From: a virus | IMG/VR virus record: IMGVR_UViG_3300009702_000082 | Location: 1-24,352 of that record | Reading direction: 5' to 3' (one strand) | DNA length: 24,352 nucleotides | Shown here: in pieces, positions 2,995 to 22,798 of the stretch | Position numbering within the stretch: position 1 is the first letter of the stretch | Layout of the letters: every line of letters begins with the position of its first letter | Made by a program: the position numbers and the translations under genes | The notes under the pieces: generated by a model | Databases searched by the model: none | Seen by the model: only the letters and a program-made list of their open reading frames with translations | What the model was told of the DNA's origin: nothing

Positions 2995-3000
2995 ATGGGC

Positions 3001-3267
3001 ATGAGGGCATCCGATCACGAGATCATCACAGGCCTAGGGCTCCTACTTTTCGCGGTGGCGGTCCTTTGGTTCGCCGGATGCTCGCCGAGCCTGTATGACG
3101 CGGCCGGCGAGCTCACCGATCCACCGCTCGAGTGCTGCGTCGTATGTAACCCGACCTACGGTTACCCGTGCGGCGACAAGTGCATTCCGCACGCTCATGT
3201 CTGCGACGCGGGAGGGAAGGAAATAAACCCATGCGCATGCGCCATCCCCGAGTTTATCGGCCAGTGA
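3001..3267 (+). CDS. Small Cys-rich lipoprotein (moron)
   Basis: Start ATG 3001 is preferred over the in-frame ATG 2995, which overlaps the -10 box. The 88-residue product has a hydrophobic stretch (residues 9-24) ending in a lipobox FAGC with lipid-acceptor Cys27, so it should be an exported lipoprotein. The mature part holds eight more cysteines arranged as CCxxC, then PCGDKC, then C and CAC. A CGDxCI core of this type occurs in small cysteine-rich bacterial and phage lipoproteins of unknown function. It sits between portal and protease with its own candidate promoter, the mark of a moron: an inserted, independently expressed gene. It could act at the host surface, for example in superinfection exclusion, but that is inference. 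Confidence 0.75.
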   Translation: MRASDHEIITGLGLLLFAVAVLWFAGCSPSLYDAAGELTDPPLECCVVCNPTYGYPCGDKCIPHAHVCDAGGKEINPCACAIPEFIGQ

Positions 3268-5242: not shown

Positions 5243-6229
5243 ATGCCCTACGCAAACCGCGACGTTCGAGCGAACGACATTCTGACGGCCTATTCGGTCG
5301 CCTACGAGCAGGACGCCTCCGGGTTCGCCTACAAAGCGTTCGGGCAGGTCCCGCTCGACACCGAGGAAAAAACCGGGCGGTACTACTCGTTCGATCTGGC
5401 GGACAAGTTCCGCTCGGACGCGCGCGAGCGCGCCCCCGGGACCGCCTCGGCGCGCAAAGAGTTCTCGATCTCGACGAAGACCTACGCGCTCAAGCGGTGG
5501 GCGGTCCACACGCTCCTCGCCGACGAGGACCGCTCGACGAAGAGCAGCCCGCTCGACGATCAGACGGAAGCCGAGTACATCACCGAGGATCTCATGATCC
5601 GCCGTGAGACCGACTTTCACACCGCGTATCTGACCCCCACGTCGGGCGTGTGGTCGACGTACCGCGCGGGCGTCGCGGCGAGTCCAACGTCGTCGGAGTT
5701 CGTCCAATGGAACCAGGCGAGCCCGACGATCATCAACGATCTGAACAACTGGTCGCGGACCGTGAAGCTCACGTGCGGCAAGCGTCCGAACGTTTGCATC
5801 ATGACCTCCGACGTCTGGGACGTCGTCCGAAACGACAGCAACGTCCTCAGCCGACACCAATACGTGAGCGATACGCCGCTCGATCTGACCTGGTTCGCGG
5901 GCCAGATCAGCGTGGATGAGGTGATCATCTCGGACGCGATCTACAACTCCGCGAACGAGGGCGCGGCGGCGGTGATGAGCTTCATGGCCACCGAGCGCGT
6001 GTTTCTCGGCGTGCGCGACGAGCGGACTTCGAAGAAGGTCATGACCGCGGGTCGCACGTTCGCATGGAGCCCCTACGATAACGTCCGGGATCTGGTCGGC
6101 ACCGCGGCCGGGATCGAGTCCTGGTACGATCGCGATCTGAAGGCCGACAAGTTCGAGGGCGAGTCCTACTACCAGCACGCGGTGGTCGCGGCCGCGGCCG
6201 GACTCGTGGCCCACAACGTCCTCGTGTAG
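5243..6229 (+). CDS. Major capsid protein (HK97 fold)
   Basis: The 328-residue product follows the decoration protein and precedes the connector genes, as expected for the major capsid protein. The sequence fits the HK97 fold: an N-terminal arm and E-loop region (YYSFDLADKFRSDARERA), a helical spine with TEDLMIRRETDFHTAYL, then KRPNVCIMTSDVWDVVRNDSN, which corresponds to the common capsid motif PNxLVxGxxVWDxLKNHPD. A later segment (LTWFAGQISVDEVIISDAIYNSANEG) matches the usual ITVDxVLVGxAxxNTAxEG. Shine-Dalgarno GAGGAGGAGGA precedes ATG 5243. No N-terminal delta domain is fused; the scaffold function is in the upstream gene. Confidence 0.9.
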   Translation: MPYANRDVRANDILTAYSVAYEQDASGFAYKAFGQVPLDTEEKTGRYYSFDLADKFRSDARERAPGTASARKEFSISTKTYALKRWAVHTLLADEDRSTKSSPLDDQTEAEYITEDLMIRRETDFHTAYLTPTSGVWSTYRAGVAASPTSSEFVQWNQASPTIINDLNNWSRTVKLTCGKRPNVCIMTSDVWDVVRNDSNVLSRHQYVSDTPLDLTWFAGQISVDEVIISDAIYNSANEGAAAVMSFMATERVFLGVRDERTSKKVMTAGRTFAWSPYDNVRDLVGTAAGIESWYDRDLKADKFEGESYYQHAVVAAAAGLVAHNVLV

Positions 6230-19523: not shown

Positions 19524-19991
19524 ATGATCGTCCTATCGCCGCACTTCACCCTCGAGGAGCTCACCGAGTCCGGGGCCGCGGCTCGGCACGGGATCGTCAA
19601 CGAACCGACGGCCGAGCAGATCCGGAATCTGACCCGCCTCGCGAACGACGTCCTCGAGCCCGTGCGCAACCGGTTCGGACCCTACCGGACCTCGAGCGGG
19701 TACCGGTGCCCAGAGCTAAACGAGCTCATCGGCGGCTCGCCTAGCAGCGCTCACATGGAGGGACGCGCCCAAGACGGATGGCCGCTCGGAGCCCGTGACC
19801 GCGCGGGCGAGCTCCACCAGGTCATGCTTTGGCTCAAAGCAAACCGGTGGCGGGTGCCGTTCGACAAGGCGATCTACGAATACGATCGATGGGTGCATAT
19901 CCAGGTCGCACGCGATGGCGGCACACCCCGAGGCGTGCTGCTGCAGAAATTCCACGCGCGCCCCTATGAGCCCTATCGTTGCGACGGTTGA
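19524..19991 (+). CDS. M15A-type peptidase (endolysin-like)
   Basis: The 155-residue protein shows the M15A peptidase pattern: HFTLEELTESGAAARHGIVN, a helix of NLTRLANDVLEPVRN, YRTSSGYRCPELNELIGGS, SSAHMEGRAQD and finally YEYDRWVHIQV. The zinc ligands are expected to be His77, Asp84 and His125, with an acidic residue just before the last His. Such enzymes cut D-Ala-containing peptide links in peptidoglycan and serve as endolysins or tail-associated lysins. With no signal peptide and a holin-like gene next, the endolysin role is the better guess. The usual SQH-xxG-xAaD motif reads SAHMEGRAQD, so the residue before His is Ala. Confidence 0.82.
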   Translation: MIVLSPHFTLEELTESGAAARHGIVNEPTAEQIRNLTRLANDVLEPVRNRFGPYRTSSGYRCPELNELIGGSPSSAHMEGRAQDGWPLGARDRAGELHQVMLWLKANRWRVPFDKAIYEYDRWVHIQVARDGGTPRGVLLQKFHARPYEPYRCDG

Positions 19992-20038: not shown

Positions 20039-20509
20039 GTGGGCATCGCTGACGTCCTGAGCGGGGACCTCGCCGAGATCGGGCTTCTGGCGGCGGGTAT
20101 TTTCGCCGCGATGCGGGCCCTGCAAACCCTTCCGTGGTGGCGGCGTGCCCCGTGGGCGCGCCGATGGACGCCGGTTCTGCCGGAGATCCTCGGCGTGCTC
20201 GGCGCCCAACTCCCGGGGGTGATCGCATCCAGAAACACGCGGAGTCCGGCCGAGCTCGTCCTCCTCGGCCTGGTGGCCGGTCTCGTGAGCAGCAAGATCC
20301 ACAAAGTTTTGGGTCAAACCATTCTTGGGAACGACTCGGTTATCGATGCCGGGCGAAGGGAACGATATGCGTCACGCGAAAATAGCTTTCTGGGCGGCCC
20401 TGGCGGTGCTGGGGACGTTCCTGGCCTGGTTGATCGGGGCGAGGAGCGACGGGGTGGAGGTGGCCAAGATCCGCCTCGCGGAGCTTCAACGGAAGGTCGC
20501 GACGGATGA
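20039..20509 (+). CDS. Holin-like membrane protein
   Basis: GTG 20039. The first 110 residues carry hydrophobic segments LAEIGLLAAGIFAAMRAL and AELVLLGLVAGLVSSKI, separated by a basic PWWRRAPWARRW stretch, and then KVLGQTILG. This fits a small holin that would release the adjacent M15 enzyme. The frame runs on to 20509 in a tail (residues about 110-156) that overlaps the next gene, is Gly/Arg-rich and has poor third-position GC. The tail therefore looks like unselected read-through, though it is still part of the translated frame. There is no other stop to shorten it. Confidence 0.6.
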   Translation: MGIADVLSGDLAEIGLLAAGIFAAMRALQTLPWWRRAPWARRWTPVLPEILGVLGAQLPGVIASRNTRSPAELVLLGLVAGLVSSKIHKVLGQTILGNDSVIDAGRRERYASRENSFLGGPGGAGDVPGLVDRGEERRGGGGQDPPRGASTEGRDG

Positions 20510-20750
20510 GGCCGAGCGCTCGCGGTTCGAGGCCGAGCAGTCTGGCGATCTCACCGCGGCGGCGGCGCACGAAAAGCGGGCCGCCGAGTTCGCCGCGCGC
20601 GCGCGCGCCCTACAGCGGGAGGAGACCGGGATCCGCGATCGGTTGGGTCGCCCTCGTGGTGATCGCGAGCTCGCCACGGACTTCGAGCGCCGCCGACGAA
20701 AGCCCAACCGACAGCCGTCCAAGCGCCGCCCCGGATCGGCCACCTCCTGA
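20367..20750 (+). CDS. Membrane-anchored coiled-coil protein (spanin-like)
   Basis: ATG 20367 (in-frame alternative GTG 20325) has AAGGGA upstream. The protein has an N-terminal membrane helix (IAFWAALAVLGTFLAWLIG), then a long charged helix (RLAELQRKVATDEAERSRFE and more), the layout of an inner-membrane spanin subunit such as Rz. The last 35-40 residues (after GIRDRL) are Arg/Pro-rich with codon use unlike the rest and overlap the next gene. The next gene's frame becomes codon-like at about 20640. In Gram-negative phages, Rz-like proteins link to an outer-membrane partner to break the outer membrane. A Gram-positive host would need a different explanation. Confidence 0.5.
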   Translation: MRHAKIAFWAALAVLGTFLAWLIGARSDGVEVAKIRLAELQRKVATDEAERSRFEAEQSGDLTAAAAHEKRAAEFAARARALQREETGIRDRLGRPRGDRELATDFERRRRKPNRQPSKRRPGSATS

Positions 20751-21138
20751 CGATCCGCCGACGCGCGCGCTCGAGCTCGAGGGCGCGCCCGGGTTCTGGG
20801 TCGCGTCCGGCACGTTTCGGTGGCTCGATGCGCAAGCCGACCTTGCGGCGGTTCGCGCGCGCCGCATCGCCGCCCTCGAGGGCCAGATAGACGCGCTCCG
20901 CGCGCAAGCGCTTGTGCTCACCCGGACCACGGACCGCGCCCAAGCGCGCGTGGACGAGCTCGAGAAGCGGCTCGCCGACTCCCGCGAGGCGGAGCGCGCC
21001 GCGCTCGAGCTCGTGGTGTCGAGCGCCGGTGGTGACGGCTGGCGACTCGTCCTGTCGTTCGCGGCCGGTGCGGCCGCGGTCGCGCTCGCCGTCCTCGCGA
21101 TCGCGCCCAGTACACCGGGGGTTGTCACGGTGCACTGA
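20506..21138 (+). CDS. Coiled-coil protein with C-terminal membrane helix
   Basis: The frame starts at ATG 20506 inside the previous gene, with GGAAGG upstream; an alternative is GTG 20656. Codon pattern becomes coding-like only from about 20640, where an export-signal-like stretch (GWVALVVIASSPRTSSA) begins. Then a Pro-rich part (DRPPPDDPPT), a coiled coil (ALEGQIDALRAQALV and RVDELEKRLADSREAER) and a C-terminal membrane helix (WRLVLSFAAGAAAVALAVL). This layout resembles a spanin partner or a one-piece spanin (u-spanin), but there is no lipobox cysteine and no cysteine at all. May be joined to the previous frame by a +1 shift or sequencing error. Confidence 0.5.
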   Translation: MRPSARGSRPSSLAISPRRRRTKSGPPSSPRARAPYSGRRPGSAIGWVALVVIASSPRTSSAADESPTDSRPSAAPDRPPPDDPPTRALELEGAPGFWVASGTFRWLDAQADLAAVRARRIAALEGQIDALRAQALVLTRTTDRAQARVDELEKRLADSREAERAALELVVSSAGGDGWRLVLSFAAGAAAVALAVLAIAPSTPGVVTVH

Positions 21139-21157: not shown

Positions 21158-21367
21158 GTGGCACGAAAGTACGCCCCCAAAACAGCGAAGTTTCTTCCTG
21201 AGACCGTGGCGGCGCTCGAGCGGCTCGCCGCCGCCGACGCGAGCGGCAAAACGACCGCCGGCGGATTGATCCGCGAGGCCGTCCAGCTTTTGCTCGAGGC
21301 GCGGACCCGCGAGCTCCGCAAGCTCGGGATGCCGCCTGGCGAGATCAAGGTCGCATGCGGAGGGTAG
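21158..21367 (+). CDS. Ribbon-helix-helix-like DNA-binding protein
   Basis: GTG 21158 starts right after a promoter with operator half-sites. The 69-residue protein has the CopG/Arc-like order: a basic strand (KYAPKTAKFL), helix 1 (PETVAALERLAAA), a short turn (DASGKTTAGG), and helix 2 (GLIREAVQLLLEAR), as in many RHH proteins where SxSELIREAIREYL follows. RHH dimers bind short inverted repeats as repressors. The half-sites over its own promoter and at 21966 and 24058 make an autoregulated repressor of this module a good hypothesis. A non-repressor RHH, such as an antitoxin, cannot be excluded; no toxin gene is adjacent. Confidence 0.65.
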   Translation: MARKYAPKTAKFLPETVAALERLAAADASGKTTAGGLIREAVQLLLEARTRELRKLGMPPGEIKVACGG

Positions 21368-22399: not shown

Positions 22400-22798
22400 A
22401 TGACAGCAGCAACGATCGAATACGTGCGCGAAGAGCAGGCGGCTATCTGGGATCTGATCGCGAGCACGATCGAGGAGTACAGACTCACGGAGCGGTTTGG
22501 CGAGGGCCGGGCCGCACCGTGGGCAGTCTCGGTTTGGTTCGACCGCGGCCCGCGGGTCGTCAGTCTGACCGGCTATGGGCGCGGGTCGCTGTCATTGACC
22601 TGGCTCGAGCAGTCGATCGCCGCGAGTCCACACCGGGTGGTGCGCGCCCATCACGATCTCGCCGCTCCGCTCCTAGGCTATCTCCTCACCGCCTCGGAGG
22701 TGTTCCTCGACGGGGCCCCGCTCCTCGCCGACGGCGCGCTCGACGCTTGGGATGAGGCCGAGACCCTGGCGCAGACGGCCCAGGATGCGACGCTATGA
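22400..22798 (+). CDS. Hypothetical protein (132 aa)
   Basis: The frame is open from 22262, but ATG 22400 has a strong ribosome binding site (AGGAGGG). The protein has a helical start (ATIEYVREEQAAIWDLIAS) and WAVSVWFDRGPRVVSLTGYG, then SLTWLEQSIAASPHRVVRAHHD, an acidic C-terminus (ALDAWDEAETLAQTAQDATL). No known domain is recognised. Its last codon overlaps the next start in an ATGA arrangement, so it is translationally coupled to the Rad52-like gene and may act in the same pathway. Confidence 0.65.
   Translation: MTAATIEYVREEQAAIWDLIASTIEEYRLTERFGEGRAAPWAVSVWFDRGPRVVSLTGYGRGSLSLTWLEQSIAASPHRVVRAHHDLAAPLLGYLLTASEVFLDGAPLLADGALDAWDEAETLAQTAQDATL

Follow-up and report, generated by a model that had tools for sequence, protein, structure and literature searches.

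The window, by which we mean the entire stretch of DNA analyzed here, is IMG/VR virus record IMGVR_UViG_3300009702_000082 taken whole (24,352 bases, GC 67.5%) and derives from a GC-rich metagenomic phage. Its genes encode a portal, a head maturation protease, a cement protein, a major head protein, a tail-like region, and a Rad52/Erf-like annealing protein. The closest named relatives of the portal (1378–2958) and major head (5243–6229) proteins, at ≈28 to 36%, occur in phages of Arthrobacter, Microbacterium, Enterobacter, Rhizobium, Pseudomonas (KPP23), and Roseobacter. A search of IMG/VR with these two proteins found no close relative, and a search of viral contigs with the 874-aa tail-region protein, the capsid, and the portal likewise returned no close phage relative. 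The record is probably a fragment of a phage genome, so arguments from absence reach only as far as the sequence present. An endolysin gene is followed by three open frames, ORF1 to ORF3, of which the first two each run into the next (Table 1).

Table 1. Features of the lysis region and other elements discussed in the text. Positions are those of the window except in the last row.
Feature	Position	Strand	Description
Small lipobox ORF	2995–3267		Strong lipobox LLLFAVAVLWFAGC, Cys-rich mature part; between portal and protease genes
Endolysin	19524–19991	+	Peptidase_M15_3 (D-Ala-D-Ala carboxypeptidase-like), 155 aa; directly upstream of ORF1
ORF1	20039–20509	+	Holin-like, GTG start, 156 aa as read, last 47 overlapping ORF2; frame 2, TGA at 20507–20509
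GAAGG	20355–20359	+	Shine-Dalgarno-like, 7 nt before the ORF2 ATG; read from sequence
ORF2	20367–20750	+	127 aa, ATG start, no Cys; frame 0; N-terminal TM helix, coiled coil, basic C-tail
ORF1 overrun within ORF2	20369–20509	+	Passive tail; off-frame codon usage, open run of chance length
(CG)7 tract inside ORF2	20594–20607	+	Longest CG run in the window; possible assembly-slip site
GGAGGAGA inside ORF2	20618–20625	+	Shine-Dalgarno-like; no canonical start codon at the usual distance
ORF2/ORF3 overlap	20638–20750	+	Probably dual-coding; intermediate codon scores in both frames
IGWVALVVIA	20638–20667	+	Hydrophobic, signal-peptide-like stretch in frame 1; RR upstream, SSA/AD downstream
ORF3	20656–21138	+	Taken from GTG 20656 as the closest canonical start; Pro-rich stretch, then a coiled coil and a membrane helix at the C terminus; Cys-free
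ORF3 C-terminal membrane helix	21046–21102	+	LVLSFAAGAAAVALAVLAI; Kyte-Doolittle mean 2.54 over 19 residues
Small ORF directly 3' of ORF3	21158–21367		GTG start; good codon use (+0.70)
u-Spanin-like genes	L010:2862–3332, L021:5423–5899, L024:5423–5911		Lipobox, C-terminal membrane helix, Lys/Arg-rich tail

The endolysin and its neighbors

The endolysin matches Pfam PF08291 (E 3.4e-17) and the endolysin family phrog_894 (E 4.3e-29), and conservation of the SxHxxGxAxD and WVH residues in the alignment places it within Peptidase_M15_3. It has many relatives, at ≈32 to 59% over the matched stretch, and those in named phages come mainly from phages of Gram-negative hosts, which suggests that the host of the window phage is Gram-negative as well. 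Phage KS9, which carries a related endolysin, has the gene set holin-endolysin-Rz-Rz1 with Rz1 embedded in Rz (gp24/gp24'). In a gammaproteobacterial prophage (L014), an endolysin 45% identical to that of the window is accompanied by a holin-like gene, an Rz-like gene, and, in the +1 frame of Rz, a lipobox-bearing Rz1 gene, the two overlapping by 56 nt. With the M15_3 endolysin directly upstream of ORF1 and these gene sets beside related enzymes, the context gives good support to the original prediction of a lysis cassette. Three further loci, viral and Bacteroidales, contain u-spanin-like genes near an M15_3 endolysin.

ORF1 has three hydrophobic segments, and both it and ORF3 are modeled as helices only in structure predictions made without an alignment. 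Its size, its helices, and the adjacent endolysin agree with the usual shape of a holin (a small protein with one to three membrane helices), and we regard it as a putative holin. Matches to the holin families phrog_1299 and phrog_1129 are weak (E 0.066 and 0.087), no holin family is matched in Pfam or NCBIfam, and the two phrog families were not found among 37 related records.

The hydropathy of ORF2 peaks at residues 6 to 24, behind a basic start, and an N-in topology is predicted, judged from positive charges alone. Past the membrane helix there are weak coiled-coil matches only and no Pfam family match. An N-terminal membrane helix followed by a presumably periplasmic coiled coil fits an i-spanin-like shape, with the topology read by charge only.

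The C-terminal membrane helix that had been ascribed to the last frame is real, with strong hydropathy. It is followed by a tail, APSTPGVVTVH, that contains neither Lys nor Arg, and the sole charge beside the helix is an Arg on its N side. An AlphaFold2 model made without an alignment places helices at residues 45 to 87 and 92 to 148 of ORF3 (pLDDT 63). None of ORF1, ORF2, and ORF3 contains a single Cys, which bears out the earlier statement that the last frame lacks a lipobox.

ORF1 to ORF3 have no relatives among phages searched by tblastn (E up to 1), among 4,803 ORFs compared by BLAST and phmmer (from loci mostly gathered by endolysin similarity), or in 398 genomes of the phylum to which L014 belongs. 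Leftover matches in those genomes (E 1e-4 to 1e-2 per genome) were dismissed as chance or coiled-coil likeness. Single-protein scans of viral contigs with ORF1 and ORF3 also returned nothing, as did a scan of genome contigs with ORF3.

Codon usage across the three frames

Codon usage was scored with a model for which eleven other genes of the window served as the training set; the mean is +0.6 bits/codon in true frames and about −0.6 in off-frames. The cores of ORF1 (20039–20366), ORF2 (20367–20637), and ORF3 (20782–21135) score +0.45, +0.75, and +0.70 bits/codon, respectively. The proposal of three successive coding frames therefore holds: frame 2 gives way to frame 0 and frame 0 to frame 1 (stop at 21138), each being +1 relative to the previous one. 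A first codon switch near 20367 agrees with the scores, which place it within 2 bits at 20343–20354, adjoining the ORF2 ATG and its upstream GAAGG. The second switch had been set at 20640, and here the scores define a zone rather than a point, as all positions from 20632 to 20748 fit within 2 bits.

The upstream frames do stay open for ≈110 to 145 bases into the next gene, as had been pointed out, but there is nothing special in this, since such lengths are expected by chance. In the +2 offset of the window's own genes, the probability of a run open for at least 143 nt is 0.49 and for at least 110 nt 0.57. These overruns are ordinary for GC-rich coding DNA. The ORF1 overrun scores −0.43 (20369–20506), at the 0th percentile of true-frame segments and with P = 0.22 among off-frame segments. 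Because its codon usage is that of an off-frame, we read it as a passive tail with no sign of selected protein sequence, and ORF1 and ORF2 meet at an ordinary junction in which the upstream stop comes late. At ORF1/ORF2 we accordingly reject any significance for the threefold chain, given the off-frame usage and the chance open length. The claim of an unusual chain is weak, since this first overlap is a passive stop-free run and the overlapped arrangement is the commonest architecture of two-component spanins; the part that stands is the C-terminal helix without a lipobox.

The ORF2/ORF3 overlap behaves differently. Over 20638–20747, frame 0 scores −0.05 and frame 1 −0.03, values above off-frame segments (P ≈ 0.01) and below true-frame segments (≈2.5th percentile). 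The annotated embedded Rz/Rz1 pair of phage KS9 served as a positive control for dual coding: its two frames score +0.24 and +0.11 in the overlap, against +0.50 for KS9 true frames and about −0.5 for off-frames. The pattern in the window is of the same intermediate kind, with lower scores. On the strength of these intermediate scores in both frames, like those of KS9, only the ORF2/ORF3 overlap is read as dual-coding, and 20638–20750 is probably such an overlap. As ORF1 to ORF3 illustrate, a long open overlap says little in most cases when the phage DNA is GC-rich, and scoring codons alongside a control of known Rz/Rz1 type can split passive overrun from dual coding.

The lysis region and the start of ORF3

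We read the region, with confidence no better than even, as serving lysis in a tailed phage whose host is Gram-negative; it would consist of the M15_3 endolysin, the holin ORF1, and the overlapped spanin-like ORF2 and ORF3. ORF1 would permeabilize the inner membrane and so give the cytoplasmic endolysin access to the wall. The N-terminal helix of ORF2 would hold this protein in the inner membrane, its coiled coil lying in the periplasm, and ORF3, a second coiled-coil protein held at a membrane by its C-terminal helix, would act with ORF2 in the final, outer-membrane step. Of this, the functions as holin and spanin-like pair and the membrane topology are predictions. This reading draws on the upstream endolysin, the three coding frames, the KS9 and L014 gene sets, the Rz/Rz1-like overlap scores, and the Pro-rich stretch of ORF3. 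It is weakened by the absence of relatives of ORF1 to ORF3, the missing lipobox and Cys of ORF3, its uncharged C-tail, and the weak holin matches. The region is a real, ordinary-looking lysis set with one odd gene, ORF3, and interest centers on this lipobox-free, C-terminally anchored protein, whose signal-like stretch lacks a proper start.

The open stretch of frame 1 extends from ATG 20506 to 21138, and no ATG, GTG, or TTG occurs in any frame at 20507–20642. The candidates for the start of ORF3 are ATG 20506, GTG 20656, GTG 20659, a non-AUG codon behind GGAGGAGA, and a +1 shift from ORF2; each is putative, and a convincing start codon is absent. Codon use does not speak for ATG 20506, because frame 1 at 20506–20637, the 44 residues after this ATG, scores −0.49, as an off-frame does. 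This ATG, the first in the ORF3 frame, forms an ATGA with the overlapping TGA of ORF1 (20506–20509), and GGAAGG lies upstream. The same ATGA occurs at the gene junction 22795–22798, and ≈20% of the TGAs in the window have an A before them.

The want of a convincing start is one reason to treat ORF2 and ORF3 as a single protein, in which two coiled coils would be flanked by membrane helices at the two ends, an explanation that we consider unlikely. What joins the frames would be a programmed +1 frameshift near GGAGGAGACCGGG/A (20618–20631) or else a slip in the (CG)7 tract, in the assembly or in the population; a CG unit lost from the assembly there would connect them. The codon evidence permits a switch at 20632–20640, and the Shine-Dalgarno-like stretch is positioned as in some +1 shift sites. 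However, the supposed shift site has neither a stop nor a rare codon, canonical GTG starts are available at 20656 and 20659, and the dual-coding scores match separate overlapping genes. Frame 0 is still strongly coding through 20637 (ARALQREETGIRDRLG), so a switch at the CG tract would cost ≈14 to 16 bits, and an assembly slip there is not favored.

With ORF2 and ORF3 as separate overlapped genes, two further readings differ in where ORF3 would start. Around 20620–20700, frame 1 reads RRPGSA-IGWVALVVIA-SSPRTSSA-ADE. No 10-mer in the +1 off-frame of the window's genes is equally hydrophobic (5,068 windows compared), and ≈10,400 off-frame residues of these genes contain no comparable signal-peptide-like stretch. 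A start ahead of IGWVALVVIA, at ATG 20506 (coupled through the ATGA to the stop of ORF1) or at a non-AUG codon, would make ORF3 a lipid-free functional counterpart of a u-spanin, with a signal peptide for export and the C-terminal helix as its anchor in the inner membrane. This seems rather improbable to us: along with the signal-like sequence, it would agree with the u-spanin-like genes that adjoin related endolysins in L010, L021, and L024 and with the absence of periplasmic Cys from all 58 surveyed u-spanins (PMC6139136), but ORF3 lacks the lipid-attachment Cys, its C-tail is uncharged, and the residues after ATG 20506 resemble an off-frame.

GTG 20656 and GTG 20659, on the other hand, are the only canonical starts near the rise in frame-1 coding. 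A protein begun there would have no signal peptide and would be a cytoplasmic coiled coil with a C-terminal anchor and an outside C-tail, for example a regulator of the holin or endolysin rather than a spanin. The Arg on the N side of the helix and the uncharged tail point to N-in by the positive-inside rule. We nonetheless find this proposal doubtful, to a similar degree, as it leaves to chance the hydrophobic residues just before GTG 20656 (off-frame 6-mers as hydrophobic occur at 0.1–0.2% of positions) and matches no known family. A bolder conjecture, which we hold to be quite improbable, is that the outer-membrane step is carried out by an exported, membrane-anchored coiled-coil protein without a lipid anchor, encoded in the +1 frame of an i-spanin-like gene. 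Its translation would begin at a non-AUG codon, through coupling to the holin stop, or by frameshifting, so that one stretch would yield the holin, the i-spanin-like protein, and this third protein in three frames.

Comparison with known spanins

A survey of 677 phages of Gram-negative hosts found 182 embedded, 228 overlapped, and 118 separated spanin pairs, making the overlapped arrangement the commonest two-component architecture (228 of 528), along with 58 u-spanins (PMC6139136). Both +1 and −1 registers occur among these pairs, and +1-frame overlapped o-spanin genes are common (PMC6139136). Phage P2 is the prototype of overlapped Rz/Rz1 spanins, and KS9 gp24/gp24' is an embedded example. 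The window resembles this type in that its frames lie beside a holin and an endolysin, although the gene order differs, with the endolysin first. ORF2 has the N-terminal membrane helix and coiled coil, and ORF3 begins inside ORF2 in the +1 frame and extends beyond its end, the overlap bearing a dual-coding signature. A Pro-rich segment characterizes o-spanins of the Rz1 type (PMC6139136), and ORF3 has such a stretch behind its signal-like one.

Unlike Rz1, ORF3 has a membrane helix at its C terminus, preceded by a long coiled coil, and lacks a lipobox or Cys; unlike Rz/Rz1 pairs generally, the two frames show no sequence similarity to known members, and the ORF3 start codon is only a candidate. 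At least one periplasmic Cys occurs in 507 of 528 two-component spanins, making it usual but not absolute (PMC6139136); the ORF2/ORF3 pair has none. Like unimolecular spanins of the T1 gp11 type and the u-spanin-like proteins of L010, L021, and L024, ORF3 combines a signal-like N terminus with a C-terminal membrane helix and no periplasmic Cys. It differs from them in having no lipid-attachment Cys and in being preceded by a separate, overlapping TM-coiled-coil gene, and its C-tail is uncharged, in contrast to the Lys/Arg-rich tails of those three proteins. ORF3 may work like a spanin, yet it is without the lipobox that defines both o- and u-spanins. The survey describes a protein of phage ADB-2 that resembles T1 gp11 and lacks a lipoylation signal, for which its authors suspected a sequencing error, and it cautions that start codons of spanin genes are often misassigned (PMC6139136), a caveat that applies to ORF3.

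A weak match to TIGR04211 (SH3_and_anchor) lies over the coiled coil, with E 0.1, far below the family cut-off. Proteins of this family have a signal peptide and a C-terminal anchor; the SH3 domain is absent here.

Approximately 13% of the surveyed phages (91 of 677) have no recognizable spanin (PMC6139136). A lipobox-free coiled-coil protein overlapping an i-spanin-like gene would be a candidate for the route by which such phages break the outer membrane.

A six-frame lipobox scan of the window found one strong ORF, that at 2995–3267, and a second that is short and poor (12322–12197, minus strand). The codon use of the former (+0.26) supports coding, and tblastn found no phage relative; it could conceivably be a separated o-spanin. 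Directly 3' of ORF3, the frame that holds the small ORF at 21158–21367 gives a weak ribbon-helix-helix antitoxin-like match in Pfam (E 0.16).
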